Of a stretch of DNA of 32,836 nt, positions 6,799 through 32,836 are shown piece by piece. The DNA is from Acidobacteriaceae bacterium (GTDB lineage: Bacteria > Acidobacteriota > Terriglobia > Terriglobales > Acidobacteriaceae). The notes beneath the pieces were generated by a model that saw only the letters and a program-made list of their open reading frames with translations, searched no databases and had not been told where the DNA came from. Position 1 is the stretch's first letter; each line of letters begins with the position of its first letter. The DNA lies in contig PMAT01000028.1 in NCBI GenBank assembly GCA_003152695.1, positions 30,660 to 63,495 of the forward strand. The letters run 5' to 3'. Made by a program: the position numbers and the translations under genes.

Positions 6799-8142
6799 TC
6801 AACGATTCTTGGCGTTTAATCTATGCTCACCGCGATTGTGGAAAGCAATGTTTAGAATGGAGTCGTCGTCTTCCGCATCCGTAGTGCTTGGCTTTTCGAT
6901 GCTTTCGCAATGCGCGGTTTCTGGAGTGTCCTTTGCTTTTACAGTAGCGGTAGCACCGGAAGCGGGGTCTGATGTGTATTGCTGTTCTGGTTTAAACTGC
7001 TTACTGAGAGCCAATCCTTGCTGCTGGTAGGACGAACCTATGGAAACGCCGTAAACCTTCTCGGGAATAGCCGCCATCTTGTAATAGTGCAGCCTGCCCA
7101 CGTATTGATCGTCCTCTAAGACGATGGGCATCTCATGCACGCGGACTTCGAGCACCGCCTTGGTCCCGGGGATTTCCCCGCGCATTCCGTATCCAAAGCC
7201 GGGGTCAAAGAAGCCGGCATAGTGGGCGCGGAAATCTCCAATGGTTGGGTCGTAGGCCACCATTTCAGCCGCATGGTCAGGTCCCACGCGAACTCGTTGC
7301 TTCGATGCCAGGAGATAAAATTCTCCCGGCTCGAGAATGAATTGGCCGTTGCGCGGCCGGTCGATAGGAGTCCAGAACTCGGCCCGGTCGTAGTAGTTGA
7401 CCCGGCTAAGATCTATGGAGGGGGCGTGCTTCTTGGCCTGATAAGCGACAACCTCGGAATGTCCGTTGCCTTGGAGGTCAACGGTCATGTATAGGCCTCG
7501 ATTGATGTCGGCTTGCCCCGAGCCGTTTTCATCGCTCAACACCAAACCATCCCCTTTAGCCAACTCCTTCAGGTCGTCATCCGCAGCAGCGTTGGACTTG
7601 CCGCGCACAAACCGCAATTGATTGAGCCTCATGCCACATTGCACGACGATTGGAAAGGTTCGCGAAACCACCTCTACATACAATCCACCGCAATACCCTT
7701 TTCGGACATGCTCGAACTCGTCACCGGTTTCGGTAATTAGCCGGGTGAAAATATCCAGCCGCCCCGTTGTACTTTTCGAATTGGCGATTCCGTAAACGTC
7801 GGAAGGAAGCGCCAGACTCTCCATCAAGGGGATGATGTACACGACCCCCTTCTCCAGCAGGGTCGGCTCGGTTATGTCGATCTTTTTCTCGAGCAGGCCG
7901 TTAGCGGTGGCCTTATTGAGCAGCGTGGTGGATCTCCCCGGCAGGAATCTGGCGCGGACCCGGTACGCTTCGTGCCACAAGCGCAGGTCGATGCTGGCTG
8001 GCTGGATCTGGGCCTCGGGAATCTCGCGAGTCGAACGGATGATGCCCGTGTCGATAAAGGTGCGAATTTCCTGAGACGGCAGGATGCCTTCGCCGCTCGG
8101 CTGCCGAGCCGTGACTGCGGGAAACAGGGAGTCTGATGCCAA
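6799..8142 (-). CDS. dcd: dCTP deaminase, long-form (2'-deoxycytidine 5'-triphosphate deaminase family)
   Basis: The protein of about 447 residues belongs to the long DCD family, whose usual length is near 370. The dUTPase/Dcd hallmark QPASIDLRLW is near residues 47-56, and ANSKSTTGRLDIFTRLI (about 120-136) occupies the place of the S-S-x-A-R active-site motif. A second Dcd-like half follows with LEPGEFYLLASKQRV and PGTKAVLEVRVHEMPIVLEDDQ. The enzyme makes dUTP from dCTP for thymidylate synthesis. A TTG start at 8142 is preferred because GGAGG lies five bases upstream; a GTG at 8154 would add four residues but has no ribosome binding site. The last 75 or so residues are Thr/Ala/Asp/Glu-rich and look like an unstructured extension. 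Confidence 0.85.
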   Translation of the reverse strand: MASDSLFPAVTARQPSGEGILPSQEIRTFIDTGIIRSTREIPEAQIQPASIDLRLWHEAYRVRARFLPGRSTTLLNKATANGLLEKKIDITEPTLLEKGVVYIIPLMESLALPSDVYGIANSKSTTGRLDIFTRLITETGDEFEHVRKGYCGGLYVEVVSRTFPIVVQCGMRLNQLRFVRGKSNAAADDDLKELAKGDGLVLSDENGSGQADINRGLYMTVDLQGNGHSEVVAYQAKKHAPSIDLSRVNYYDRAEFWTPIDRPRNGQFILEPGEFYLLASKQRVRVGPDHAAEMVAYDPTIGDFRAHYAGFFDPGFGYGMRGEIPGTKAVLEVRVHEMPIVLEDDQYVGRLHYYKMAAIPEKVYGVSIGSSYQQQGLALSKQFKPEQQYTSDPASGATATVKAKDTPETAHCESIEKPSTTDAEDDDSILNIAFHNRGEHRLNAKNR

Positions 8143-8417
8143 GATTTCCTCCACCTTATCCGTTAGTAATGTCGCGCCGCGCTGTCCCGCGTTTGTCGAG
8201 ACTCCAAAGGGTAGCAGGTGATTCCCCCTGTGGATTTCTTGGGAATCTCACTCTTATTGTGAATTTCCCACAAGAGCATTTGCAATCAATGACTTGGTCG
8301 ATCCAAACACTGCGCGCGAAGCCATTGTCTGTGCAAAACTATTTTTTGCGATCCCTTGCAACTGCTGCAAGATGGTGCAGGAAGCAAGAACGACGTGGTG
8401 CGAGTGCCGACTCAATA

Positions 8418-10574
8418 TTACGGCGTCATGCCCAACTGCCAGAACAAAAACGAGTAGATGTCGGTCCACTCTTCCACCTGCTTCGAGATGGGCTTGCCCG
8501 CGCCGTGTCCGGCCTTCGGCTCGATGCGCAGCAGAATCGGATTCGGCCCGCTGTTGTCCGCCTGAAGCAGCGCGGTCATCTTTTTGGCGTGCATGGGATC
8601 GACGCGCGTGTCGGTGTCGGCAGTCATGAAGAGCACCGCCGGATACGCAGTGCCCTCCTTGACGCGGTGATACGGCGAGTAGGCGTACAGCCATTCGAAC
8701 TGCTTCGCGTCCAGCGACGAACCGTACTCCGGTACCCACAGCTTGGCAATCTGGAAATTCTGGTAGCGCAGCATGTCGAGCAGCGGCACCTGGCAGATGA
8801 CGGCGCGAAACAGATCAGGCCGTTGCGTGAGTGCAGCGCCCATCAGCAGGCCACCATTGCTGCCGCCACGAATTGCCAGGTGTTCTTTGTCGGTGTAGCC
8901 TTCCTTCTCCAGATACTCCGCCGCGGCGATGAAATCGTCGAAGACGTTCTGCTTTTTGTCGAGCATGCCGGCGCGATGCCAATCTTCACCGAATTCGGAG
9001 CCGCCGCGCAGGTTGGCCATGGCGTACACGCCGTCGTGATCCAGCCACGGAAACAGCACCTTGCTGAATTCCGGCGTCAGGCTGACGTTGAAGCCGCCAT
9101 AGGCGGTCAGCATGGCCGGGTTGTGGCCGGTGAGCTTCAGTCCCTTGCGCAGGACAAGGAACATCGGCACCCGAGTGCCGTCCTTCGAGGTGTACCACAC
9201 CTGCCGGGTCTCGTACTTGTTGGTGTCGATGCCGGTTGGGACTGAATCCCACAGTGTGCTCTTCGCCGTCTGAATGTCGAAGCGGTAGATCGTAGCGGGT
9301 ACGGTGAATGAAGTGAAGACATAGAACGCGCTGGTGCTGTCGTACTCGCCGCCGATATTGACGATCGTGCCGAGGGTCGGGAGTTCCACTTCACCGAGTG
9401 GCTTGCCGTCGGTGGTGAAGCGCTTGAGCAGCGAGTGCGCGTTCAACTCGTAGCGGGCGAAAAGTTGTCCGCCGATGATGTGGAGCGACGAGAGCACGGC
9501 ATCGGATTGCGGAATGATCTCGCGCCAGTGTTCGCGTGCCGGCGCCGTTACCGGAGTCTTGAAGACGCGGAAGTGCGGGCCATCTTCGTTGGTCAGGATG
9601 TAGAGATCGCCGTCGTACGGCTCCGCAAAGTAGAGAAAGTCCTTGCCGGTGCTGATGCGAATCGCTGGGGCGCCGGTTTGCACGTCCTGGAGAAAGAGTT
9701 CGGTCTTGGTCCAACCCTGCGCCACTATGATGCTGAGCCAGCGGGCGTCGTTCGATAAGGTTACGTTCGGCCAATCCTGCGGGTCGCGGCCTTCACCGAA
9801 AATGAGCGGGTCCTTTGCGGTATCTCCGCCCAGCGGGTGATAGAAGACGTGCCGGTTGTACATCTCCTGGCCTTCCGCAACATCACCCTTCTTGGGATAA
9901 CGCGTGTAATAAAAACCGCTGTCGTCGGGCTTCCACGCTATGCTGGCGGCGCGGGTGCGTTCGATGGTATCGGGCAGCAGCTTGTGGGTGGCGGTTTCGA
10001 TGACGTGCAGCGTGCTCATCTCGGAGCCACTTTCGGACGTGCCGTAAGCGACAAACTTTCCGTCGTGCGATGGCCGCCACCAGTCGAGCGCCACCGTCCC
10101 GCCCTTGGAGAGCGGGTTGACATCCACCAGCACTTCGTCCTTGCCGTCCACGTGTTTGCGGACGTAAAGCACCGGCTGGTTCTGTTTGCCTTCACGGCGA
10201 GTGTGGAAATAATACTCGCCACCCACCTCCGTCTCGCCCAGATTGCCGATTTCGATCAACTGCTCGATGCGGTCGTGCAGTTTATCCCGGCCCGGCAGTT
10301 TGTCGAGGATGCTGCGCGTATAGGCCAGTTGCGCCGCCACCCATTGCTGCGTTTCGGCACTGCTACCATCCTCCAGCCAGCGGTATGGGTCAACAATCTT
10401 GTGGCCGAAGTAGTCGTCGGTAACGGGCTGCTGCTTGGTAGCGGGAGGCTTGGGAATGTTCATCGTAGATGAGGTGCTGCTGTTGTTGTGGTTCTGTGCC
10501 GGTGCGGTTGCCAGCAGCAGGAGTGAGGCGCTGAGCGAGAATAGCGAATAACGGATGACGTCATAAGAATTCAT
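8418..10574 (-). CDS. prolyl oligopeptidase family serine peptidase (S9A), secreted
   Basis: The 718-residue protein starts at the ATG at 10574, giving a signal peptide YSLFSLSASLLLLATAPAQ; the frame is open further upstream but without homology. The N-terminal S9 segment (DYFGHKIVDPYRWLEDGSSA) is followed by a seven-bladed propeller region. A C-terminal alpha/beta hydrolase domain follows, with the catalytic triad visible as GGSNGG (S572), ADTDTRVDP (D655) and AGHGAGKP (H690). Also typical are YGGFNVSLTPEFS and YAMANLRGGSEFGEDWHRAG. Such enzymes cleave short peptides after proline; the signal peptide points to the periplasm or outside. It is a single-gene unit. Confidence 0.95.
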   Translation of the reverse strand: MNSYDVIRYSLFSLSASLLLLATAPAQNHNNSSTSSTMNIPKPPATKQQPVTDDYFGHKIVDPYRWLEDGSSAETQQWVAAQLAYTRSILDKLPGRDKLHDRIEQLIEIGNLGETEVGGEYYFHTRREGKQNQPVLYVRKHVDGKDEVLVDVNPLSKGGTVALDWWRPSHDGKFVAYGTSESGSEMSTLHVIETATHKLLPDTIERTRAASIAWKPDDSGFYYTRYPKKGDVAEGQEMYNRHVFYHPLGGDTAKDPLIFGEGRDPQDWPNVTLSNDARWLSIIVAQGWTKTELFLQDVQTGAPAIRISTGKDFLYFAEPYDGDLYILTNEDGPHFRVFKTPVTAPAREHWREIIPQSDAVLSSLHIIGGQLFARYELNAHSLLKRFTTDGKPLGEVELPTLGTIVNIGGEYDSTSAFYVFTSFTVPATIYRFDIQTAKSTLWDSVPTGIDTNKYETRQVWYTSKDGTRVPMFLVLRKGLKLTGHNPAMLTAYGGFNVSLTPEFSKVLFPWLDHDGVYAMANLRGGSEFGEDWHRAGMLDKKQNVFDDFIAAAEYLEKEGYTDKEHLAIRGGSNGGLLMGAALTQRPDLFRAVICQVPLLDMLRYQNFQIAKLWVPEYGSSLDAKQFEWLYAYSPYHRVKEGTAYPAVLFMTADTDTRVDPMHAKKMTALLQADNSGPNPILLRIEPKAGHGAGKPISKQVEEWTDIYSFLFWQLGMTP

Positions 10575-10721
10575 TGCATCGAGTTTACCAGTGCAGAGGG
10601 TAGGCAGTCCGCGATTATGGCGTCGAGAGCGGCGCCATGGCGCTACAAGGCCATCGGCAATCGGCGGCACTTCCTTTGCGCCAAAACGGAACGTCACGAT
10701 CGCGTCAAGTGTCGCAAATCT

Positions 10722-19539: not shown

Positions 19540-21435
19540 TCAGTGAACGAGATGTCCGACGATGTTGTAGGCCGCGAAGGCCGAGATGTAAGCGACCACA
19601 GTCATGTAGCTGAACTGCAGTACCGGCCACTTCCATCCGTTGGTTTCGCGACGCACCACGGCAATGGTGGACATACATTGCATGGCGAACGCAAAGAAGA
19701 CGAGCAGGGCGACGGCGCCCGCGGGCGTGAGCTCTTGCTTCAACGCCGCCTGCAAATCAACAGCGTGGGATTGGGGATCGATTCCGTTCAAGGTTCCGAG
19801 CGTAGCGATAATCACCTCGCGCGCGGCGATGGAGGTCAGCAGTCCAACTCCGATTTTCCAATCGAACCCTAGCGGACGAATGGCAGGCTCGATGGCGTGA
19901 CCCACCCAGGCAACGACGCTGTCTTGCACTGCGGGCGGTTGCCCATGATGCATGGGGAAGTTGGTCGCCGCCCATAGCAGCAGCGAAACCAGCATGATCA
20001 CTGTGCCCGCGCGATAGAGGAATGCCTTGCCGCGATCCACCAGCCGCAATCCCAGGGAAACAAGCGTGGGCCAGCGATAAGGCGGCATCTCCAGAATGAA
20101 GGGCGCGTCCTTGCTCTTCAGAACCGACGACTTCAGCAGCCGCGCCGTGAACACCGCCATCAGGAAGCCGAGAACATACAGCCCCAGCATCGCCAGCGCT
20201 CGCGTTCCCAGAAAGACGCCGAGCACCGGCCGGTTCGGCAGGAACGCCGCGATCACCATGGTGTAAACCGGAAGGCGCGCCGAGCACGTCATGAAGGGCG
20301 CGATCAGGATGGTGGCAATGCGATCGCGCTTGTTCTCGATGGTGCGCGTTGCCATGATGGCCGGCACTGCGCACGCATACGCCGACAGCAGCGGTATGAA
20401 GCTCTTACCGTTCAGGCCAACCCGGGACATGGTGCGGTCGGCGATGACCGCGGCGCGCGAAAGATATCCGGAGTCCTCGAGAATTCCGATGACCAAGAAC
20501 AGCAGCAGAATCTGCGGCAGGAAGACCAACACCGAACCGGTTCCCTTCCACACGCCGTTCACGATGAGCGAACTGAACATCCCGTGCGGCAGATGACTGC
20601 TAATCTGCAAGCCGCTGACATCGAGGAAATGCTGCAGCAGGTTCGAGAGGGGCTGGCCAATCGCGAAGATCGTCTGAAAGACACCGATGACGACCACGCC
20701 AAAGATGACTGCGCCCCAGGTGCGGTGCAGGAATATGGAGTCAAGCCGTTGCGTCCAAACCGGAGTTGCCGGACGGCGATACCTCGCATTCGTGCCCACC
20801 TTCACGGCCCACTCGCGATAACCGCGCGTGCTTCCGACTACGGGCAGTTCCAAGGGCTCGGGGCTGGCTGCCGCCGAGGATAGAAAATTCTGCACCGCGA
20901 CAATGCCTTCGCCGGTAGTGGCGCTGACCAGCGCAACTGGGGTACCCAACTGGCGCGCTAACGACAGCACGTCCACGTGACCGCCCTGCTTACGCAGCTC
21001 GTCGGCCATGTTCAGCAACACCAGCGTTGGCAGGCCCAGCGCGATGACGCGGCCCGCCAATACCAAATGGCTATGCAGGTTGGTGGAATTCAAAACCACG
21101 ATGATCGCGTCCGGGCGTGGCGTGCCCGGCATCTGTCCGCTCAAGACATCGACCGCTACCTTTTCATCTTCGGACTTGGGAGTCAGACTATAAACGCCGG
21201 GCAGATCGATCAGCGCCACCTCATGGCCTTCGAAGTCGCGCACGTATCCGGTATGGTGTTCGACGGTGACGCCGGGGAAATTGCCGACTTTCTGACGCAG
21301 ACGGGTGAGCCGGTTGAAGAGGGTGGTCTTGCCGGAATTGGGAGGGCCGACGACCGCCACCGTGCGATACGACGCGCTGAGGGATTCATCCCTGGGCCGC
21401 GCCACCGCATGGCAGCTCATGGTCGAGGCGCCCAT
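19540..21435 (-). CDS. feoB: ferrous iron transport protein B
   Basis: This 631-residue inner-membrane Fe(II) transporter has an N-terminal G domain: G1 GPPNSGKT (30-37), switch region VGNFPGVTVEHHTG (50-63), G3 DLPG (77-80) and G4 NMAD (142-145). The membrane part contains the two Gate motifs, visible as GYLSRAAVIADRTMSRVGLNG-type and AREVIIATLGTLNGID, plus CAVPAIMATRTIENKRDRIA. The C-terminal cytoplasmic domain of gamma-proteobacterial FeoB is largely absent, giving the short form. G1 has Pro where most FeoB proteins have Asn (G-N-P-N). It starts three bases after the feoA stop, so the two genes are co-transcribed. Confidence 0.95.
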   Translation of the reverse strand: MGASTMSCHAVARPRDESLSASYRTVAVVGPPNSGKTTLFNRLTRLRQKVGNFPGVTVEHHTGYVRDFEGHEVALIDLPGVYSLTPKSEDEKVAVDVLSGQMPGTPRPDAIIVVLNSTNLHSHLVLAGRVIALGLPTLVLLNMADELRKQGGHVDVLSLARQLGTPVALVSATTGEGIVAVQNFLSSAAASPEPLELPVVGSTRGYREWAVKVGTNARYRRPATPVWTQRLDSIFLHRTWGAVIFGVVVIGVFQTIFAIGQPLSNLLQHFLDVSGLQISSHLPHGMFSSLIVNGVWKGTGSVLVFLPQILLLFLVIGILEDSGYLSRAAVIADRTMSRVGLNGKSFIPLLSAYACAVPAIMATRTIENKRDRIATILIAPFMTCSARLPVYTMVIAAFLPNRPVLGVFLGTRALAMLGLYVLGFLMAVFTARLLKSSVLKSKDAPFILEMPPYRWPTLVSLGLRLVDRGKAFLYRAGTVIMLVSLLLWAATNFPMHHGQPPAVQDSVVAWVGHAIEPAIRPLGFDWKIGVGLLTSIAAREVIIATLGTLNGIDPQSHAVDLQAALKQELTPAGAVALLVFFAFAMQCMSTIAVVRRETNGWKWPVLQFSYMTVVAYISAFAAYNIVGHLVH

Positions 21436-21438
21436 GCC

Positions 21439-21738
21439 TTAGTCTCCGAACACGGGCGCCCCAGCCAGCTCCACGTGAATGTGGCGTGACAGGTCGCGGC
21501 GCATGGCAACTTCGGTGCCTTCCACCCGGTACACGCGGGGATCTCCACCCGGGCTGCTGCGCGTCACCGTGACTTCCAGGCCAGGCACAAAACCCAGGTT
21601 CATGAGATGCTCCGCTACCGGAGGAGCGAGCTCTAACTCGGCGAGAATGGCTTTTTCTCCCACGTGCAGATCGGCGAGGGCGTTGGCCTGGCGCTTGCGA
21701 TGTTTCTTAGGACGGCCGAATATGAAGTTGAAAATCAT
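21439..21738 (-). CDS. feoA: ferrous iron transport protein A
   Basis: This 99-residue protein has one FeoA (SH3-like) domain from about residue 20: LADLHVGEKAILAELE, LMNLGFVPGLEVTVTR, and the end strand YRVEGTEVAMRRDLSRHIHV. FeoA is a small cytosolic accessory protein for FeoB. The ATG at 21738 is used because a ribosome-binding GGA and a promoter (-35 TTGCCG, -10 TAGAAT) lie just before it; the frame is open further to 21942 but without homology. The first 18 residues are basic (GRPKKHRKRQ) and precede the conserved domain. The start codon sits inside a Fur-box-like palindrome. Confidence 0.92.
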   Translation of the reverse strand: MIFNFIFGRPKKHRKRQANALADLHVGEKAILAELELAPPVAEHLMNLGFVPGLEVTVTRSSPGGDPRVYRVEGTEVAMRRDLSRHIHVELAGAPVFGD

Positions 21739-21744
21739 TTTCAA
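21728..21744 (-). promoter_or_regulatory. Fur-box-like palindrome over the feoA start codon
   Basis: TTGAAAATGATTTTCAA is a perfect palindrome around a central G and contains the 7-1-7 form TGAAAAT-G-ATTTTCA, close to the Fur consensus TGATAATnATTATCA (one change per half-site). It covers the feoA ATG (21738-21736) and lies about 10-27 bases downstream of the predicted transcription start. Iron-dependent repression of feoAB is inferred from established Fur biology. Confidence 0.65.
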
Positions 21745-21754
21745 TTCCAACTCT

Positions 21755-21782
21755 ATTCTAACTCTTTCCCGGGGATCGGCAA
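21755..21782 (-). promoter_or_regulatory. predicted feoAB promoter
   Basis: On the minus strand TTGCCG (21782-21777), a 16-base spacer and TAGAAT (21760-21755) resemble a sigma-70 promoter. It would start transcription about 12 bases before the feoA ATG, immediately upstream of the Fur-like palindrome. Confidence 0.5.
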
Positions 21783-21884
21783 CGACCAAAGTCACACTCG
21801 TTTGTGACGCGCGAACATCGGGAAAAACCGACTCCAGGCCTCCGAAATGGCCGGCGTCGGCCACTGGCCATGCCCGCTCCGGCT

Positions 21885-22310
21885 TCAGTGCGCATTCACT
21901 CTGACTTGGAACGTCTTCGCCGGAGCCACGTTGTGTTCCCATGGCCGGCGGTATTCCAAGCTAAGCGATGCTATCCCCGCGGAAACGGCGGTCAGCCTGA
22001 ACTCCTGCGTGACCGGCGCGCCTACGGCATGGCCGTTTTGACCGGTTTTCTTCGTAGAACTCTTCACCAGTTTGAGAGGCGAGGGATCGCCTTTTATCGC
22101 CCAACTGTAACCAGTTGACGGATTGCTCTCCAGACGGACCACCAGGGTGTCACGGGCGGGAAGGTCGATATCCTTTCCGTCGTCCTGATCAGCGATGGCG
22201 ATCACGGAGGAAGTGCTCTTCTGCTGAGCGCCTGGCGATTGCTGCGGTTGCGCCACAAGCATCAAAGAGAAAAGCAGCGAGTGCAAGACGACGACCGCGA
22301 TGCGAGTCAT
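21885..22310 (-). CDS. chagasin-like (I42) cysteine-protease inhibitor, secreted
   Basis: This 141-residue protein has a signal peptide at about 1-21 (RIAVVVLHSLLFSLMLVAQ) and a chagasin/ICP domain. The three inhibitory loops are recognisable: NPSTGYSW (63-70), the G-A-P-V-T-Q-E-F loop (97-104) and RRPWE (121-125). Members are tight inhibitors of papain-like cysteine proteases and act outside the cytoplasm. The ATG at 22310 is selected because it begins the signal peptide; upstream frame to 22394 has none. It is on the same strand as feoAB but separated by about 150 bases holding the feo promoter, so it is probably independent. Confidence 0.87.
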   Translation of the reverse strand: MTRIAVVVLHSLLFSLMLVAQPQQSPGAQQKSTSSVIAIADQDDGKDIDLPARDTLVVRLESNPSTGYSWAIKGDPSPLKLVKSSTKKTGQNGHAVGAPVTQEFRLTAVSAGIASLSLEYRRPWEHNVAPAKTFQVRVNAH

Positions 22311-24842: not shown

Positions 24843-25256
24843 TTATGACTTGTAGGGGCTGGGGCCGAGCTTCTGCACTTGCTCGGTAAAGCTGCTTACA
24901 ACTTCGGCGAATCTTGGGCCTTCCGCTGCCGAAACCCATTCCAGGCGAAAGCGCTCTTCTTCGAGTCCGAAATCGGTCAGCATCAAGCGGAGAGCGCCAG
25001 CCCTCTTCTCAGCCTTCAGGTTGCCATCCTGGTAGTGGCAGTCGCCGGGATGACAGCCGCACATGAGAACGCCGTCGGCGCCCTTGGTCAGCGCCTCGAT
25101 CACCAGGTTGGGATGGACCATGCCGGAGCACATCACGCGAACCATGCGGATGCTGGGCGGGTACTGGATGCGCGAGACACCAGCCAAATCGGCGCCGGCA
25201 TACGAGCACCAGTTGCAGCAGAAAGCGAGGATCAAAGGTTGAAAGCTATCTTCCAT
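24843..25256 (-). CDS. mvhD: MvhD-like iron-sulfur electron-transfer subunit (hydrogenase delta)
   Basis: This 137-residue protein is the [2Fe-2S] subunit that links hydrogenase to HdrA in methanogens and their bacterial relatives. Conserved cysteines are seen in AFCCNWCSYAGAD (11-23), VMCSGMV (41-47) and LMCGCHPGDCHY (64-75). QmoB carries the same domain at its C terminus. The ATG overlaps the stop of the giant HdrA gene (TGATG, 25254-25258), with GGAGGTG just before it, so translation is coupled. A GTG one codon upstream is possible but less likely. It is the last gene of the operon. Confidence 0.93.
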   Translation of the reverse strand: MEDSFQPLILAFCCNWCSYAGADLAGVSRIQYPPSIRMVRVMCSGMVHPNLVIEALTKGADGVLMCGCHPGDCHYQDGNLKAEKRAGALRLMLTDFGLEEERFRLEWVSAAEGPRFAEVVSSFTEQVQKLGPSPYKS

Positions 25257-28200
25257 CACGCCACCTCCAGGGCAGCCTCAATCTGGGCCCTGATTTGATC
25301 GAGGGTGAATCCCCGGATGAATATGCCGTTCTTGGGACAGGTCGCCTGGCAGCATCCGCAGCCTTTGCAGGTGCTCTCGTTGGTCTCGACGATTTTCTTA
25401 ATCGACCCCTGCCACATGTACTCGACCAGGGTGATCGACTTGAACGGACAGGTGTCCACGCAGTAGGCGCAGCCATCGCAGTTCTCGTCCACTACCTGGG
25501 AAATGTTGGCCTCCATCTCCAGGCTGTCCTGAGCCAGGATGGTGGCGGCCCTGGCGGCCGCCGCCTGGGCCTGCAGGATGGATTCATCGATGGTCTTGGG
25601 CGAGTGCGCCAGTCCGCAGAGAAACACGCCGTCGGTCATGAAGTCTACGGGGCGCAGTTTCATGTGAGCTTCGAGGAAAAATCCTTCACTGTTCAACGGG
25701 ACCTTCAGGAACTGCGCGACCTCCTTATTGCCTTCGTTCGGATCAATGCCCGCCGACAGGACCACTAGGTCGGCAGAAATCAACATTGGCATACCCAGGG
25801 TTTGGTCGAAGACGGTGACCTGAAGTGCATGGGGGTTCCGTGATACCTCGGGCTTGCGGTCTTCCTCGTAGCGCACAAACATGACGCCCTTTTTCCGCGC
25901 CTCGGTGTAGGAGCTCTCCTTGAAGCCATACGTCCTGATGTCCCGGTAGAGAATGTAGACATTTGTCCCTGGGAACAGCGCCTTGATCATGAGAGCGTTC
26001 TTGATTGCCACGGTGCAGCACACGCGCGAGCAGTAGGGCCGCCCCTCGTCCCGCGAGCCCACGCACTGGATCATGACCACCGTCTTTGGCGCTGGCTTCC
26101 CGTTAGTCGCGAGGAAGCCGTCTCCCGCAGCCAGACGTTGCTCCAGCTCCCGCTGCGTCAGTACCTTGTCATCCTGCCCATACAGGTACTCTTTCGGCTC
26201 GTACTGCTTGGCGCCGGTGGCAACGATGACGGTCCCGTGTGCGATCTCCGAAGTTGCGCCTTTGGCTGAAATCTTCGTCTTGAATTCGCCAACGTTGCCG
26301 TCAATGCCTTCAATAGTCGCCCCGGTGAAGAGATGAATGCGGCCGTTCTGCCGGACTTGCTCGCGCACGCGCCTCAGCTCGTCCTGGGGGTCCTCGCCGG
26401 CGAGCACGTAGTGGATATGCCGCAAGTTCCCGCCCAGCTCATCCTCTTTTTCCACCAGGTAAGCATCGAAGCCCTGCTCGGCCAGCGCCAGCGCAGCGGT
26501 CATGCCGGCGATCCCGCCACCGATAACCAGGCCAGACTTGTTGACCCTGACCGAGCGCCGGGTGAGGGGCTGCAGCAGCCGGGCCTTGGCGACCGCCATC
26601 CTCACCAGGTCTTTGGACTTTTCTGTGGCTTTCTCCGGCTCGTGCATGTGCACCCAGGAACACTGGTCGCGGATATTCGCCATCTCAAAGAGGTAGGGGT
26701 TCAGTCCCGTCTCGCGCAGGGTATTCCGGAATAAAGGTTCGTGGGTCCTGGGCGTGCAGGAGGCAACCACCACGCGATTCAAGTCATGCTCGATGATCTT
26801 TTGCTTGATCAGATCCTGGGTATCGTTGGAGCAGGTGTAGAGATTGTTCTCCGCGTACACCACGTTGGCCAAAGTCTTGGAGTACTCCACCACGGCGGGG
26901 ACGTCGGCCACCCCGCCGATATTTGTCCCGCAGTGGCAGACAAAGACGCCGACGCGAGGCTCCTGTCCAGCTACGTCCTTTTCAGGCGGATAGACCTTCT
27001 GCGTAATCAGCGAGCCGCGGGCTTGGCTCAGGTATGTGAGCACCTGCGCCGCCGACGCTGAGGCCTGCATGACCGTTTCCGGAATATCCTTGGGCTCGGC
27101 GAATGGGCCGGCCACGAAGATTCCTTCGCGCGACGACTCTGCCGGCTGGAAGGGCGAAGTCTCACAGAAGTTGAAGGCGTTGAGCGCCACGCCGAAGCGT
27201 TCGGCCAGCACCTTGACATCTTTCGGCGGCTGCATGCCTACCGACAGGACAACCAAGTCGTATTCCTGGGAGAGCTTCTTGTCGTTCTCGCCGAGATACT
27301 TCACCACCAGGTTCCGGGTCTCGGGAACTTCCTCCACGCTCGGCACACGGGAACGGAAGTAGCGCACGCCCAGCTCTTGCGCCCTGCGGTAGTACTGTTC
27401 GAAGCCCTTGCTGTAGGCGCGAAGGTCCATGAAAAAGATGTCGCACTGCAGCCCCTCGCCGAGATGCTCCTTGGCGATGATCGCCTCCTTGGTGGCATAC
27501 ATACAGCAGACCGAGGAGCAGTAGTCATGTTCGAAATCTCGCGACCCGACACACTGCAAGAACGCAATGCGCTTCGGTTCCTTGCCATCATGAGGACGCA
27601 GTACGTGGCCAGAATAGGGCCCTGACGCCGACAGCACCCGCTCGAACTCCAGCGCCGTGATCACATTGGGAAAGCGTCCATAGCCAAGGTCCTTTTTCAA
27701 CCGCGCATCGAAGACCTCATAGCCGGGAGCGAGGACGACCGCTCCCACCTGGAGTTCGATCTTCTCTTCCCGCTGCAAGTAGTCGATCGCGTGCGCCTGA
27801 CAGGCGGTCTCGCAGAGATGGCAATCGGAGCAGATCCCACAGGCGAGACAGCGTTTGGCCTCGGCAATGGCTTCTTCCGCCGTGTAGCCCACGTGGACCT
27901 CGGCAAACGTTTTTCCACGTGTCGCAGGGTCAAGGGATGGCACTGGTATCTGGCGCTGCATCAGCACACCCTGCGTGTCCACTTCGTATTCGGTGTGATA
28001 GGGCCCTTCCAACCCGCGTCCGCCGCGCAGGTCCTGGTGATTGAGCCAGCGGTCGATGGAGATTGCAGCTTTCTTGCCGGCCAGCTGGGCATGGATCACC
28101 ACGTCAGGACCGGTTACACAGTCGCCACCCGCAAACACTCCGGGCAACCCGGTTTCCAGCGTCAGCGGGTCGGCTGCCAGGGTTCCCCACTTGGTGGTCT

Positions 28201-29725
28201 CAAGGCCCAAGCGCTCTCCTAAAGCGCCCACATCGGGAGACTGGCCGATGGTGGCGATGACGGCGTCACACGGGAGAACGAACTCGGAGTTGGGAATCGA
28301 TACGGGAGCAGGCCGGCCGCTGGCATCGGGCGGGCCCAGTTTCATCTTCAGGCACTCCAGCCCGGCCACCCGACCGCCGCGCCCAGCCTTGAAAGCCTTG
28401 GGTGCAACGAGAAACATCAATTTGATGCCTTCGCGCTCCGCATCCTCGACCTCACGCTGATCGGCCGGCATCTCTGCGCGGGTGCGGCGATAAACGATCG
28501 TGACCTCTCCTGCACCGCTGCGAAGGGCCGTGCGCGCCGCGTCGAGAGCCGAGTTGCCCCCGCCTATGACTAATACCTTCTGACCAGGGGTCACGGCCTT
28601 TCCGAGATTGACTCGGCGCAGGAAGTCAATGCCCCCGATCACGCCGGGCAGGTCTTCTCCGGGAACTCGAAGTTTCCGTTCAACGTTGGCGCCGATGGCA
28701 ATGAAAACGGCGGCAAAACTCTTGCGCAGCTCGTCGAAGGCGAGGCTGCGGCCCACGGGCGTGCTCAGCTTGATCTCGATCCCGATTGCGCGCAGCCTGT
28801 CTATTTCTGCATTCAGCAATCGGCGCGGCAAGCGGAACGCCGGGATTCCGACGGCCAGCATTCCCCCGGCAGTCGGGAGCGCCTCGAAGATGGTTGGACG
28901 GTAGCCTTGTTGCCGGAGCTGATAGGCACAGACCAGTCCTGCCGGTCCGGAACCGATGATGGCAACTTTCTCCGCACGATCTGGAACCACCGGCTGTGGC
29001 AGCTTGTAGTCGGGATAATAGTCCGTGACAAAGCGTTTCAGCGCCGGTAGATTCACCGGGTCGTCCACGGTGCCACGAGTACAGGCGGCGGCGCAGGGGT
29101 GGGTGCAGACACGACCGCATATGGAGGGGAGTGGATTGTCGCGCAAAATGACCCGCAGCGCCTCATCAAAGCGCCCTTGCGCGATCAGAGCTACGTAAGC
29201 CTGTCCGCTCTGATGAATGGGGCACGCATTATGGCAGGGGGCGGTCCCGCGACGAGAGATGGTGAACACGTTGGGAACGGCCTGCGGGAACGGCCGGTAG
29301 ATCGCCTTGCGCTCTGCCAGTCCCTGGTCGAATTCCGACGGCAGTGTCACCGGACACTCCGTAACGCAGGCGCCACAACCGGTGCACTTCGTCTCGTCGA
29401 TATAGCGCGCTTGCTTCTTGATGCGGACGGTGAAATTGCCCGCTTGGCCGGTGATGCTTTCCACCTCGCTCAGGGTGAGGATCTGGATGTCCTTGTGGCG
29501 TCCGATCTCGACCAGGCGCGGCGCCATGGTGCACATGGCGCAATCATTTGTGGGGAATGTTTTGTCGAGCTGCGCCATGACCCCGCCGATGGCGGCCTTG
29601 CTTTCAACCAGATAAACCTTGATGCCCGCTCCCGCGAGATCCAGGGCGGCCTGCATACCACCGATACCGCCGCCTACGACCAGGGCTGCGCCCACCGGCT
29701 GGGTCTTGGAATCCTTAGACGGCAT
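25256..29725 (-). CDS. hdrA: giant fused HdrA/QmoA-like - GltD-like - HdrA flavoprotein
   Basis: This 1489-residue protein is probably cytoplasmic. Residues 11-125 are the start of an HdrA/QmoA module: FAD fold VVGGGIGGMQAALDLAGAG, FPTNDCAMCTMAPRLVEIGR, and cluster CTGCGACVTEC. Residues 160-565 are a GltD-type insert: a cysteine-rich domain (APCHNACP, CGRVCTHPCAAAC), FAD fold IIGSGPAGLVCAY, NAD(P) fold VIGGGNSALDAARTA and VFAGGDCVTGPD. Residues 626-900 resume HdrA (CLACGICSDCHLCETAC, FLQCVGSRD, YCSSVCC). Residues 925-1489 are a second full HdrA: VGVFVCHCGTN, CTPRTHEPLFR, FAD fold VIGGGIAGMTAALALAEQGF, IQCVGSRDEGRPYC, and two ferredoxin clusters (1416-1426, 1453-1464). The ATG at 29725 has GGAGG nine bases upstream and overlaps the qmoC-like gene by 11 bases. 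It is the likely electron hub of the operon. Confidence 0.92.
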   Translation of the reverse strand: MPSKDSKTQPVGAALVVGGGIGGMQAALDLAGAGIKVYLVESKAAIGGVMAQLDKTFPTNDCAMCTMAPRLVEIGRHKDIQILTLSEVESITGQAGNFTVRIKKQARYIDETKCTGCGACVTECPVTLPSEFDQGLAERKAIYRPFPQAVPNVFTISRRGTAPCHNACPIHQSGQAYVALIAQGRFDEALRVILRDNPLPSICGRVCTHPCAAACTRGTVDDPVNLPALKRFVTDYYPDYKLPQPVVPDRAEKVAIIGSGPAGLVCAYQLRQQGYRPTIFEALPTAGGMLAVGIPAFRLPRRLLNAEIDRLRAIGIEIKLSTPVGRSLAFDELRKSFAAVFIAIGANVERKLRVPGEDLPGVIGGIDFLRRVNLGKAVTPGQKVLVIGGGNSALDAARTALRSGAGEVTIVYRRTRAEMPADQREVEDAEREGIKLMFLVAPKAFKAGRGGRVAGLECLKMKLGPPDASGRPAPVSIPNSEFVLPCDAVIATIGQSPDVGALGERLGLETTKWGTLAADPLTLETGLPGVFAGGDCVTGPDVVIHAQLAGKKAAISIDRWLNHQDLRGGRGLEGPYHTEYEVDTQGVLMQRQIPVPSLDPATRGKTFAEVHVGYTAEEAIAEAKRCLACGICSDCHLCETACQAHAIDYLQREEKIELQVGAVVLAPGYEVFDARLKKDLGYGRFPNVITALEFERVLSASGPYSGHVLRPHDGKEPKRIAFLQCVGSRDFEHDYCSSVCCMYATKEAIIAKEHLGEGLQCDIFFMDLRAYSKGFEQYYRRAQELGVRYFRSRVPSVEEVPETRNLVVKYLGENDKKLSQEYDLVVLSVGMQPPKDVKVLAERFGVALNAFNFCETSPFQPAESSREGIFVAGPFAEPKDIPETVMQASASAAQVLTYLSQARGSLITQKVYPPEKDVAGQEPRVGVFVCHCGTNIGGVADVPAVVEYSKTLANVVYAENNLYTCSNDTQDLIKQKIIEHDLNRVVVASCTPRTHEPLFRNTLRETGLNPYLFEMANIRDQCSWVHMHEPEKATEKSKDLVRMAVAKARLLQPLTRRSVRVNKSGLVIGGGIAGMTAALALAEQGFDAYLVEKEDELGGNLRHIHYVLAGEDPQDELRRVREQVRQNGRIHLFTGATIEGIDGNVGEFKTKISAKGATSEIAHGTVIVATGAKQYEPKEYLYGQDDKVLTQRELEQRLAAGDGFLATNGKPAPKTVVMIQCVGSRDEGRPYCSRVCCTVAIKNALMIKALFPGTNVYILYRDIRTYGFKESSYTEARKKGVMFVRYEEDRKPEVSRNPHALQVTVFDQTLGMPMLISADLVVLSAGIDPNEGNKEVAQFLKVPLNSEGFFLEAHMKLRPVDFMTDGVFLCGLAHSPKTIDESILQAQAAAARAATILAQDSLEMEANISQVVDENCDGCAYCVDTCPFKSITLVEYMWQGSIKKIVETNESTCKGCGCCQATCPKNGIFIRGFTLDQIRAQIEAALEVA

Positions 29726-30881
29726 GGGGAACAACCTCCGCGGCCGGCGCTTGCCGCCCGGCTCTCTGCCTGACCGCCAGGAAATACAGGGCCAGCGGTC
29801 GATAAACCATGTGAGACCACTTTCCAAATGACATCTCTACCAGCAACATGGGCGTGGCGATGACAATGTGCAGGGCGTACAAGAAGTGGCAGGTGAGCCC
29901 AAAGCCGGCATAGCGGAAAATGTGTGCCGCCAGACCGCTGAGCACGGTCAACACCAGCAAAACGGGAAGAACCAGGTCCTGAAACCGCGTTTCTTTGTAG
30001 ATCTCCTTCTGTGCCCGCAGCCGGCCTAAGAAAATCTCTCCCAGGCCGTAGAGGATGAGGCCCGTCGCGAGGTATCCCACCCACCGCTGCGGATTGTAAA
30101 AGGGGTAGAGGTTGTCGGTTTGAAACCACTTCAGTCCAAACACCTTGATGGCGAGCATCATCACTGTGCCCAGCGCCAGGCACCAATGGCTGAACCACCG
30201 GCCTTGGTCCGGGCACTTCCGCAACAGGGAATGAGTCATCGACTGGTACACGTAGGTCCAGGATTCGGCCACGTAGCTGGAAAATGGAATGTGCGCACGC
30301 TGTTCTCCATTCATGGTGAGCCGCCAGATGCGGAAGACCCGCGATAGCAACAACAGCAGTGGAACCAGGATCACCGTTAGCGTGTAGTAGGTCATCAGCG
30401 GGAACATGTGTTCCAAGCCAAGCGGCGTGGTGACAAACTGTGCAGCCGGCATCTTCACGTACCACAAGTGATAGCCGAGGATCAGCAGGAAGGTGAGTGC
30501 CGCCACGAAGATTAACGAACCCAGGTACCACGCCGTGGACTGCAGCAGCTTGGGGGCGATGCCCGTCCAGTCGTACTGCGCGCTGAGAAAGCGCCGCAGT
30601 GTGAGCATGGAGATTCTGGGCTCGGCTTGACGCGGGCAGGTAACCGAGCAGTCGCCACAATCATGACAGACCCACGGGTCCAGGCTTTTGACCAGCGGTT
30701 CTCTTAATCCCAGTAGGGCGAAGCGAATGCTCTTGCGGGGAAAGGTGGCGCCATCGTCGACCAGATCGCAGATAAGCGTGCAACTCCCGCATTGGTAGCA
30801 GCCCGTAGGGTCGAACTTTCCATACCGCCGGATGTCGGCTAACAACGTGGGATCGCTAACCGAAAGGGTTTCCACTGCCAT
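29715..30881 (-). CDS. qmoC: QmoC-like protein: HdrC ferredoxin domain fused to a membrane cytochrome b domain
   Basis: The 388-residue protein has two [4Fe-4S] motifs in the N-terminal HdrC-like domain: C28-x2-C31-x2-C34-x3-C38 and C72-x2-C75-x2-C78-x3-C82. A C-terminal part with about six membrane helices (from residue 117) follows, with histidines suited to haem b binding (H232, H320, H332, H338). This is the architecture of QmoC, which connects Qmo flavoproteins to the quinone pool. AAGGTG precedes the ATG at 30881. The stop overlaps the hdrA start by 11 bases, implying a tight complex. HdrC-HdrE-type naming would also fit. Without HdrB, quinone is the likely membrane partner. Confidence 0.88.
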   Translation of the reverse strand: MAVETLSVSDPTLLADIRRYGKFDPTGCYQCGSCTLICDLVDDGATFPRKSIRFALLGLREPLVKSLDPWVCHDCGDCSVTCPRQAEPRISMLTLRRFLSAQYDWTGIAPKLLQSTAWYLGSLIFVAALTFLLILGYHLWYVKMPAAQFVTTPLGLEHMFPLMTYYTLTVILVPLLLLLSRVFRIWRLTMNGEQRAHIPFSSYVAESWTYVYQSMTHSLLRKCPDQGRWFSHWCLALGTVMMLAIKVFGLKWFQTDNLYPFYNPQRWVGYLATGLILYGLGEIFLGRLRAQKEIYKETRFQDLVLPVLLVLTVLSGLAAHIFRYAGFGLTCHFLYALHIVIATPMLLVEMSFGKWSHMVYRPLALYFLAVRQRAGRQAPAAEVVPHAV

Positions 30882-31130: not shown

Positions 31131-31685
31131 TTACGCGCTGGCTTGGCATTGGCATAGGTCACCTCGCCTCGCTGTGGTGCGGGGAAAATACTCGCGCACC
31201 AGCCACTGCGCCGCCTGCGGCACGGCCTCGCTGACGGCCTCCGACAAACCTTGGGATATTTCTTCCGGCAGTGGCCCTGTCTGGCAGGCCAGCACCCGCA
31301 CTTCGACCCCGCAACTTTCTTGCAACTCGCGCAGCAGATTGGAGGTGGGCAACTGGTGCAGCGAGAAATCGTCGAGTTTGACTGCCGGAATTTCGGCAGG
31401 ATCAATCTCGAATATCTCGCCTTGAGTGCGTCCGGCATCGATTGCGTCGAGGACTAGCAACCGCTGCGGACGCGCGGAACTCAGGCAGAGAGTGAATAAC
31501 AGCTTGCGCACGCCCGTGCCGACGTCCAGCAAGCAAACGTTTTCGGGCACTTGGTAATGTGACTCGATATAGTCAACGACCGCGCACCCGAAGCCGTCAT
31601 CTCCAAACAGAATATTCCCAACGCCGAGCACCAGGGTCGGCTTCTGGCAGAACTCGGGAAGATCGCAGGGATCGACCTCCCGCAT
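31131..31685 (-). CDS. [NiFe]-hydrogenase maturation endopeptidase (HycI/HybD/FrhD family)
   Basis: This 184-residue protease removes the C-terminal peptide of the hydrogenase large subunit after nickel insertion. The family fold is clear: LVLGVGNILFGDDGFG (18-33), LLVLDAIDAG (76-85) and the SLHQLP motif with H110. The nickel-sensing ligands in this family are Glu/Asp, Asp and His; here the first is Asp (G-D-D-G), as in the FrhD branch. AGGAGGT precedes the ATG at 31685, which lies 24 bases downstream of its presumed substrate gene. The last 15 residues after QWLVREYF are non-conserved. Confidence 0.93.
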   Translation of the reverse strand: MREVDPCDLPEFCQKPTLVLGVGNILFGDDGFGCAVVDYIESHYQVPENVCLLDVGTGVRKLLFTLCLSSARPQRLLVLDAIDAGRTQGEIFEIDPAEIPAVKLDDFSLHQLPTSNLLRELQESCGVEVRVLACQTGPLPEEISQGLSEAVSEAVPQAAQWLVREYFPRTTARRGDLCQCQASA

Positions 31686-31709: not shown

Positions 31710-32836
31710 TTAGTTGGCAAGCGAGTCTAGCAATTTGCCGTCCGCACTGAAGATATCCAGCTTGACCGACAGCTTTCCGTCCAGCCGGTGGGTCGCACAG
31801 GACAAGCATGGATCGTAGGCGCGGATCGACATTTCTACTGTATTCAGCACTCCCTGGTCGTACACGCCGTTATGGATCAAACTCTTGGCGGCCTGCGTGA
31901 CCGACATATTGATGGGAGCGTTGTTGTGGGTGGTGCCCACAATCAGGTTGACGTTGGTGATCATGCCGTCGGCATCGGTGGTGTAGTCGTGGATGAGCGT
32001 GCCGCGCGGCGCTTCGGTGACGCCTACGCCTCGCGCTGCCCGTGGCGTAACTTTCACCCGCGTCTCCGTGCTGATGATCTCGGGATCGTCGAGCAAGCGC
32101 ACGGTGTTTTCGGCGTTGTAGAGCAACTCGATCAACCGCGCCCAGTGATAGAGCAGGGTGAGCTGTGCCGGCCGCCCGAACTTGGCGCGAAACTCCTCCA
32201 GTTCGGCCTGCGCCAGCGGCGTGTCGATATAGTCGCAGGTGTTGATGCGAGCCAGCGTGTTGGCACGATACACGCCCTTGGGGTTTTCCACATCCATGGA
32301 GAAACCTTCGCCCCATTGTTTGGCGTAGGGGAACTTCAAGTAGCTCCACGGTTCGATATGCTCAGAAATGAACTCCGTATAGCGGTCATACGGAAAGTCC
32401 TGGTAGGAACCAGTGGGCGTCATGAGGCGAAGCTTTCCGTCGTAGAGGTTGAGCGCCCCGTCTTCCTTGACCGTGCCGATAAAGCCGGTCGTGATAACTC
32501 CTAGCGACTTCACCACGTCGAGATATTTGGGGAAGACGTTCTCCTTGGCAAAAGCAATGGAGAACTTGGCGAGTTCCAGCGCGTCATCGGCCTGCTTGCG
32601 CAACTGATCGCGCTCGTCCGCTGCCAAAGGTTTGCTGAATCCGCCAGGAACCGCCGCCTGGGGATGGATCGATTTGCCCGCCAGGACTTCCAGCATCTTG
32701 GCGCACATGTGCCGCACTTTCACCACTTGTCTGGCAATGTCGGGGGCTGCCTGCAACACCCCGATAACATTGCGGACCGAGTAAGGCGCATCCGGCCCCA
32801 GCAGGAAATCGGCTCCCGCCAGGAAGTAGAAGTGCA
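31710..32836 (-). CDS. mvhA: [NiFe]-hydrogenase large subunit, group 3 (MvhA-like), N terminus beyond the window
   Basis: About 374 C-terminal residues are visible; the gene continues past the right edge (upstream frame HFYFLAGADFLLGPDAP). Catalytic-subunit landmarks are YLKFPYAKQWG, GVYRANTLARINTCDYIDTP, GVGVTEAPRGTLIHDYTTDA, NLIVGTTHNNAPINMSVTQA and the C-terminal Ni ligand motif DPCLSCATH. After that His, 25 residues remain (RLDGKLSV to DSLAN), the peptide expected to be cut by the adjacent protease. The E-A-P-R-G-T-L and C-A-T-H forms, together with MvhD, support group 3c (Hdr-linked) rather than group 1. The small subunit is presumably upstream, outside the window. Confidence 0.92.
   Translation of the reverse strand, partial: HFYFLAGADFLLGPDAPYSVRNVIGVLQAAPDIARQVVKVRHMCAKMLEVLAGKSIHPQAAVPGGFSKPLAADERDQLRKQADDALELAKFSIAFAKENVFPKYLDVVKSLGVITTGFIGTVKEDGALNLYDGKLRLMTPTGSYQDFPYDRYTEFISEHIEPWSYLKFPYAKQWGEGFSMDVENPKGVYRANTLARINTCDYIDTPLAQAELEEFRAKFGRPAQLTLLYHWARLIELLYNAENTVRLLDDPEIISTETRVKVTPRAARGVGVTEAPRGTLIHDYTTDADGMITNVNLIVGTTHNNAPINMSVTQAAKSLIHNGVYDQGVLNTVEMSIRAYDPCLSCATHRLDGKLSVKLDIFSADGKLLDSLAN

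Follow-up and report, generated by a model that had tools for sequence, protein, structure and literature searches.

The fusion gene and its relatives

The window analyzed here is a stretch of 32,836 nucleotides from an Acidobacteriaceae bacterium (GCA_003152695.1, contig PMAT01000028.1, positions 30,660 to 63,495 of the forward strand), and the gene under study, at 25256-29725 on its minus strand, encodes a protein of 1489 amino acids (aa) in which an HdrA, a GltD-like flavoprotein and a second HdrA are fused. The frame runs without a break from an ATG at 29725; open frame extends over 25256-29827 (minus strand), and a TTG located 102 bases upstream of the ATG falls inside the neighboring QmoC-like gene. 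In Pfam and NCBIfam searches, HdrA-type flavin adenine dinucleotide (FAD) folds flank the GltD-like part and another follows after it; on the 1523-aa form that begins at the upstream start, Pfam finds three Pyr_redox_2 stretches and a GltD-type Fer4_20 domain at residues 195-271. Among curated models the best scores go to HdrA2 (1024 bits, cut-off 1100), HdrA (792 bits, cut-off 1400) and the GltD-type PRK12771 (558 bits, cut-off 516); the first two fall short of their cut-offs and the third exceeds its own. The protein was aligned to the solved HdrA of Methanothermococcus thermolithotrophicus (5odc_A, 653 residues), which pairs residues 13-158 with 145-290, 632-846 with 293-510, 921-1099 with 2-180 and 1335-1484 with 503-648; the flanking blocks place the insert at about 5odc residues 290 to 293. 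The resulting layout, in which NAD(P) is nicotinamide adenine dinucleotide (phosphate), is as follows.

25256..29725, minus strand: HdrA/GltD/HdrA fusion gene (HdrL-like; "type II + type III" HdrA), 1489 aa
29252..29725, minus strand: HdrA module 1, first half, residues 1-158, with FAD fold, C65 and first cluster motif C114-C124
27851..29251, minus strand: GltD/NfnB-like insert and linker, residues 159-625, with NAD(P)-binding GGGNSALDAAR and YRRTR
27011..27850, minus strand: HdrA module 1, second half, residues 626-905, with second cluster motif C632-C642, E695, C725/736/740/741 and K746
25259..27010, minus strand: HdrA module 2, residues 906-1489, with N-terminal domain, FAD fold, E1195/K1242 and C-terminal 2[4Fe-4S] ferredoxin

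A search for relatives found 343, and 80 loci were kept. At 65 of these, an uninterrupted open reading frame (ORF) of at least 1380 aa holds all four modules; GltD and HdrA are joined in nine others that are contig-cut or broken, and six have no in-frame GltD. Carriers of the fusion include Syntrophaceae, Smithella, Dehalococcoidia and Desulforamulus putei DSM 12395. In the genus of the window, three of nine genomes (the window's included) are positive at E <= 1e-100, and a tandem HdrA match at E <= 1e-150 occurs in 23/396 genomes of an Acidobacteriota sample, again counting that of the window. Because the architecture recurs unbroken in 65 of the 80 related loci, the fusion is no assembly artefact, and chance or misassembly as its origin was ruled out by this recurrence. 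An earlier note on this DNA had named as its refuter an assembly join of separate genes, and had suggested a search for the HdrA-GltD-HdrA architecture among other proteins. The contig does contain a gap of two N bases in the neighboring MvhA gene, but the window itself is free of N and the identical architecture comes from many assemblies, including that of D. putei DSM 12395; such a join is extremely improbable. A Lokiarchaeote fusion of 1648 aa (L073:7998-12944) bears MvhD at its end, and in Desulfotomaculum relatives a second tandem HdrA, 1018 aa long and lacking GltD, lies directly next to the GltD fusion (L080:8001-15489) or in its vicinity (L056).

Fold, cluster ligands and nucleotide motifs

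In module 1, the inserted ferredoxin domain is interrupted by the GltD insert, with one cluster motif of that domain on either side; in HdrABC-MvhADG the inserted ferredoxin domain is thought to pass low-potential electrons out to ferredoxin (PMC9012536). An AlphaFold2 model of residues 1-1200, built with 34 relatives, had a mean predicted local distance difference test score (pLDDT) of 84.2 and a predicted template modeling score (pTM) of 0.72. VIA-align superposed residues 5-902 of this model on 5odc_A 137-568 (411 aligned, 2.0 Å, Z 45.1) and matched residues 160-649 to the GltD portion of NfnABC 9bov_A (467 residues, 2.1 Å, Z 48.5). Since both halves of module 1 superpose on 5odc_A, they are predicted to close as a single HdrA fold, with the GltD part folding separately. 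The alignment and the model thus bear out the view of the earlier note that a GltD-like insert splits the first HdrA, and answer the structure prediction it had asked for. Its 1489-residue ORF is confirmed as uninterrupted, and the note is also supported in seeing three FAD folds in one chain together with an NAD(P) fold and several [4Fe-4S] sites; from the motifs, three FAD and some eight or nine [4Fe-4S] clusters would be expected. Of the insert boundaries it gave, residues 160-565, the start holds (~160) and the end moves to ~625 with the linker. Its second HdrA, called complete, proved not to be so, as residues 921-1489 lack the inserted ferredoxin domain. Its identification of the two units with QmoA and QmoB is conjectural: the curated models that score highest are HdrA2 and HdrA, and the neighboring gene resembles QmoC only at a score under the cut-off of that model.

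By alignment to 5odc_A, module 1 is without the N-terminal domain and the C-terminal ferredoxin; module 2 has both but is without the inserted ferredoxin domain, and the NDCxxC stretch of 5odc is not present in its sequence (residues 921-1489). A separate model of module 2 (mean pLDDT 81.6) aligned with 550/653 residues of 5odc_A (Z 40.9, root-mean-square deviation 4.6 Å). Because module 2 has the terminal domains missing from module 1 and lacks its ferredoxin domain, the chain resembles an asymmetric HdrA pseudo-dimer. In HdrA dimers, the Cys197 ligand of the N-domain cluster is supplied by the partner subunit (PMC9012536). Residue conservation was counted over 66 sequences, i.e., the window protein and 65 relatives: the Cys197 equivalent, C65 of module 1, is kept in all 66, as are all of the module 2 N-domain cysteines (930, 932, 965 and 990). 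With C65 in module 1 and these cysteines in module 2, the two modules would therefore complement each other, in line with what Chadwick et al. proposed for HdrA fusions of archaea (PMC9012536). Lys409 and Glu356 at the flavin are given as marks of bifurcating HdrA (PMC12054007), and their equivalents are found in 66/66 sequences in module 1 (E695/K746) and in 58/66, window included, in module 2 (E1195/K1242). Cysteines that are not constant are C203 (53/66), C164 (65/66) and C626 and C629 (64/66 and 63/66), the latter two being extra cysteines ahead of the second cluster motif of module 1.

The GltD domain of the window protein carries GxGxxA and YRRTR, as does the NADP(H)-bound 5jca_L. The GxGxxA motif (A393) is found in 66/66 sequences, the RR pair at 413/414 in 55/66, the window among them, and an acidic residue at that site, an NAD-type sign in Rossmann folds, in 11/66. 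For type III HdrA, Lyu et al. (PMC12054007) give the rule that GXGXXG rather than GXGXXA marks NAD; at the dinucleotide motif taken to be theirs, the window protein does not have GXGXXG, and by this rule A393 points to NADP(H). The 11 sequences with the acidic residue include L059 and L022, which belong to the HdrA clade of the window and have a GltD of a different lineage, and exchange of the insert may for this reason change the carrier. The acidic GltD residue occurs together with loss of the module 2 Lys in L058, L060, L061, L063, L065 and L066; L055 and L052 show the Lys loss only, and L022, L051, L056, L059 and L080 the acidic residue only.

GltD-HdrA fusions were named HdrL in 2009 in Desulfobacterium autotrophicum HRM2 (Strittmatter 2009, PMC2702500), in which HdrL1-3, like the window protein, are described as large predicted HdrA/glutamate-synthase fusions that contain an NADH binding site and precede mvhD; HdrL1 and HdrL3 differ from the window protein in being selenoproteins. 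A 2025 Desulfurivibrio paper compares one of its HdrA to HdrL (PMC12142623). HdrA9-11 were described in ANME-1 by Chadwick et al. 2022 (PMC9012536), and type III (A9, A10) and type II (A3, A4) HdrA by Lyu et al. 2025 (PMC12054007). The GltD/NfnB insertion in the ferredoxin domain of type III and HdrA9-11 proteins (PMC12054007, PMC9012536), the two thioredoxin-reductase units of the fused type II pairs (PMC12054007) and the complementary N-domain and Cys197 of HdrA3/4 (PMC9012536) all have their like in the window protein. As in type II, it has a pair of thioredoxin-reductase units in which N-domain and Cys197 complement each other, and, as in HdrL and type III, a GltD-like domain lies inside its inserted ferredoxin domain. 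Type II and type III are here united in one chain of 1489 aa, whereas the longest archaeal HdrA given in the text of Lyu et al. has 1182 aa (PMC12054007). The order of the parts, with Cys197 in the first unit and the N-domain in the second, is reversed relative to the account of HdrA3/4 by Chadwick et al. (PMC9012536). Lyu et al. see a likeness to class A12 in the C-terminal portion of type II (PMC12054007). The GltD modules of NfnABC/StnABC (9bov, 9n5u, 8oh5) match that of the window at 42-45% identity (Z 44.8-48.5); the chains matched are without HdrA units, unlike the window protein.

The operon and a proposed hydrogen-bifurcating complex

The pointer to function comes from the operon, on which the earlier note did not draw. 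The genes around the fusion lie on the same strand and are, from upstream to downstream:

L005 11734-12660, upstream and outside the window: MvhG (VhuG-like) gene
31710..32834, minus strand: MvhA/VhuA-type [NiFe]-hydrogenase large subunit, C-terminal part; the gene runs past the window end
31131..31685, minus strand: hydrogenase maturation protease, HycI/FrhD type
29715..30881, minus strand: QmoC-like subunit with an HdrC-like cluster domain and six hydrophobic segments; the gene shares bases with the beginning of the fusion gene, which follows
24843..25259, minus strand: MvhD/FlpD (PF02662, E 7e-55; FlpD model well above cut-off)

The fusion gene overlaps the QmoC-like gene by 11 bases and MvhD by 4. 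The qmoC model, the best hit for the QmoC-like gene, is covered over nearly its whole length, at 167 bits in the window and 165 bits in the relative L062 (cut-off 300). VhuA is the best model for MvhA, at 307 bits for the partial window gene and 465 bits for the whole MvhA of L062 (cut-off 800), and the VhuG model, again the best hit, gives 241 bits on MvhG (cut-off 450). The hydrogenase is one which we take to be of group 3c (Mvh). The MvhA motifs ICGVCPWSH and AYDPCLSCATH fit the L1 (ICGxCxxxH) and L2 (AYDPCxxCATH) motifs given as defining MvhA (PMC6085437). Among the 80 kept loci are 16 acidobacterial ones with GltD joined to HdrA (L010-L021, L038, L047, L077 and L078); MvhA is present at 13 and a QmoC-like gene at 12 of these. 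Gene order varies among them, the hydrogenase genes of L021 point the opposite way, and L014 (on both sides) and L038 are cut loci.

No HdrB gene was found in the window operon. The window genome has seven CCG (HdrB-type) matches in four frames, on contigs C89, C71, C100 and C61 and none on the operon contig C63, and an unlinked HdrB is possible. Two NuoF-type (Complex1_51K) matches lie on C89 and C3, with none on C63; one of them, on C89, is near a hydrogenase/NuoD-type family match and is probably part of complex I. The NuoE/NuoF-like BfuBC core is absent from the window operon. No match to DsrA was obtained at E <= 0.001 in the window genome (99.4% complete), so that a role in sulfur metabolism through DsrC coupling is unlikely there. 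Genes for FeoA (21439-21942) and FeoB (19540-21435) lie close to this iron-rich operon, at 19540-21942 on the minus strand of the window.

The HdrA fold of both units, MvhD, MvhA and MvhG are shared with the HdrABC-MvhADG complex (5ODC), but the window operon has no HdrB, a QmoC-like membrane subunit stands in the HdrC role and GltD fills the ferredoxin exit. HdrL1-3, to which the window protein is likened by description only, differ from it in that it is accompanied by MvhA, MvhG and the QmoC-like subunit. A type III HdrA gene of Bathyarchaeota has been found with mvhADG (PMC12054007). The Bfu family, which includes a Bam-Bfu with an HdrA-type module (PMC9304861), has NuoE/NuoF/NuoG-N-like parts that are present in sister loci of the window but not in the window operon. 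The HdrA-GltD fusion class is thus already known, and what is less expected is the hydrogenase/QmoC-like operon without HdrB and the NuoE/F/G alternatives; no description of a QmoC/Mvh/HdrL operon or of a NuoE-split HdrA was found in the open-licence literature.

We propose, with a probability of about one half, that the fusion protein serves as the central subunit of an electron-bifurcating hydrogenase attached to the membrane, in which H2 oxidation would be bifurcated to menaquinone and NADP+. MvhAG would oxidize H2, the two HdrA units would form a pseudo-dimer in one chain, and C65 of module 1 would be the Cys197-type ligand to the cluster of the module 2 N-terminal domain. From the bifurcating FAD, one electron would pass to the HdrC-like domain of the QmoC-like subunit and on to menaquinone (MK), and the other through the inserted ferredoxin domain of module 1 to the built-in GltD, where NADP+ would be reduced, for a net reaction of 2 H2 + NADP+ + MK -> NADPH + MKH2 (plus H+). 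The architecture, domain closure, conserved residues and operon are seen in the sequence or the models; complex formation, the electron route, its direction, the quinone and the use of NADP+ over NAD+ are what we infer. This proposal draws support from the overlapping operon genes, the recurrence of MvhA and the QmoC-like gene, the conserved residues, the GltD and MvhA motifs, the fold closure and the energetics, and MvhA at 8 of 12 split-gene relatives (see below) is counted in its favor as well. In the proposal, coupling to menaquinone means that NADPH could still be made from dilute H2. Assuming potentials of -414 mV for H2 (1 atm), -380 mV for NADPH and -74 mV for menaquinone, as printed in PMC9304861, NADP+ reduction alone at 1e-4 atm H2 would stand at ~+16 kJ/mol and the menaquinone-coupled reaction at ~-27 kJ/mol; in the H2-oxidizing direction the latter would still yield ~-4 kJ/mol at 1e-6 atm.

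These same values bear on the possibility of reverse operation, in which the complex would produce H2 by confurcation, from NADPH and menaquinol, in anoxia. Its parts would be identical to those of the forward complex. Group 3 hydrogenases were reported in the peat acidobacterial MAGs (metagenome-assembled genomes) SbA1-7, including SbA4 (L016), and were called bidirectional, and group 1 and 3 hydrogenases are among the genes upregulated in anoxic microcosms (PMC6018796); the main text of that paper makes no mention of "Hdr". The negative values for H2 oxidation at both 1e-4 and 1e-6 atm speak against reverse operation, which we hold to be quite unlikely. It is unlikely also that the chain does not bifurcate at all and merely wires hydrogenase, NADP(H) and quinone together, or is a plain H2:NADP+ enzyme with the QmoC-like gene serving elsewhere. 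The E/K pair of module 2 is altered in 8/66 sequences, showing that the marks of bifurcation can be lost from one flavin at least, and the QmoC-like match is weak enough to fall under its cut-off; yet the pair is retained in both modules of the window protein and in module 2 of most relatives, and the QmoC-like gene overlaps the fusion gene.

Several further points weigh against the proposed H2-bifurcating complex. The QmoC-like, MvhA and MvhG matches are all under curated cut-offs, and the 2-base N gap (L005:11497-11498, just past the window end) breaks the MvhA frame of the window genome, MvhA being intact in relatives such as L010. The QmoC-like gene was not seen at L015-L017, three of the 16 acidobacterial loci. 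Residues 1201-1489 lie outside the 1-1200 model, the pairing of C65 with the N-domain rests on sequence, and the NADP preference rests on motifs. Lyu et al. suggest for type III HdrA a block of ferredoxin by GltD, with NAD(P)H as the mid-potential donor (PMC12054007). Applied to the window, NAD(P)H would be oxidized by GltD and HdrA would split the electrons to quinone and H+, with evolution of H2. GltD does occupy the ferredoxin exit and could block ferredoxin, and most Syntrophaceae/Smithella loci have MvhD, HdrC and HdrB instead of a hydrogenase, those of the other HdrA clade showing MvhD, mostly HdrBC and no MvhA; the exception L076, which does show MvhA, lies in the clade of the window. 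An insertion in the low-potential exit, however, suits an acceptor as well as a donor; moreover, in the known Mvh-Hdr complex the hydrogenase enters at MvhD, the usual mid-potential entry. We regard a donor role for NAD(P)H as unlikely.

Other inserts in the ferredoxin domain and their proposed exchange

One Terriglobales MAG, L062, has HdrA parts with 76% identity to those of the window; its HdrA is cut within the inserted ferredoxin domain into two genes (1393-2304 and 7341-10610), and HdrA is likewise split over two genes in L072, L086 and L087. The first gene of the split loci joins the HdrA N-half to a NuoE-like [2Fe-2S] domain, and the second encodes a NuoG-N-like ferredoxin domain followed by the remainder of HdrA module 1 and module 2. 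In these four loci, a small NuoE-like ferredoxin and then a NuoF-like protein are encoded between the two genes, and MvhD, MvhG, MvhA and the protease are encoded downstream of the second. Gene 1 is visible in 8 of 12 split loci and is of the HdrA-N/NuoE type in all eight; MvhA is found at 8/12, and DRTGG, PHP and HATPase-type genes at 9/12. A NuoF-GltD fusion occurs in four split loci, L075 (2-2734), L086 (1429-4488), L133 and L138, and its position beside a split HdrA is reminiscent of Stn-type complexes. Further tandem HdrA carry no insert, and at L146 separate NuoE, NuoF and NuoG-N-like genes adjoin the tandem HdrA. The junctions of the GltD and NuoE/F/G inserts are ~30 residues apart, by which an identical insertion site was rejected; what is shared is therefore a domain interval and not a residue, and independent insertions are favored.

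Trees were quick LG+G4 trees without bootstraps and with long-branch warnings, and the groups for the approximately unbiased (AU) test were named only after the trees were inspected. For the main tree, 121 rows became 94 once 17 whose insert state was unknown and 10 that repeated refetched loci had been removed, and identity thinning brought these down to 56. On this tree of HdrA C-parts, three insert states need 12 changes, with six changes of the GltD label forced by well supported branches alone, and four-state labels need 13 changes against a shuffled mean of 20.6. Joining the in-frame GltD rows of the clade of the window was rejected (p 1.8e-6), as was placing every split-gene row in one clade (p 9e-47). 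On the GltD tree, the HdrA clade is itself rejected (p 1.9e-10), and so is a grouping of L059 and L022 with the GltD group of the window (p 0.0018). In agreement with this conflict, identities to the window in the HdrA C-part and GltD are 68% and 46% for L059 and 62% and 46% for L022, compared to 67% and 73% for L015. On these quick trees the histories of GltD and HdrA conflict, suggesting exchange rather than descent of the inserts. A point against exchange is that the tree improved when the five Terriglobia GltD rows were constrained to one group (p 0.924); the nesting of L062 within these rows, seen on the quick tree, is not required, and L062 is placed only close to them.

Because relatives hold unrelated NADH modules in nearly the same slot, the inserted ferredoxin domain of tandem HdrA looks like an exchangeable carrier port, and we give about an even chance to the joint view that it is one and that the window complex is an undescribed quinone-driven H2-bifurcating NADP+ reductase. 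Unrelated pyridine-nucleotide modules would have been plugged repeatedly between the two cluster motifs of one scaffold, these being an NADPH-type GltD, an NADH-type GltD or a Bfu-like NuoE/NuoF/NuoG-N set, the last of which would cut HdrA into two polypeptides that must reassemble; the scaffold would often retain its hydrogenase partners whatever the module. If this is true, soil and peat acidobacteria turn dilute H2 into NADPH at the expense of quinone reduction, a coupling for which no description was found in the open-licence literature. Natural carrier variants in one domain would make it possible to study directly how a bifurcating flavin is wired to its low-potential partner and would be a template for swapping carriers in a redox machine, and the two-gene HdrA would offer a test of whether two chains can assemble into a bifurcating flavin site. 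Among the HdrL-like fusions, one in a Dehalococcoidia MAG (L034:5802-12825) has near it an HdrC-like gene and a gene for methylenetetrahydrofolate reductase of the MetF type.

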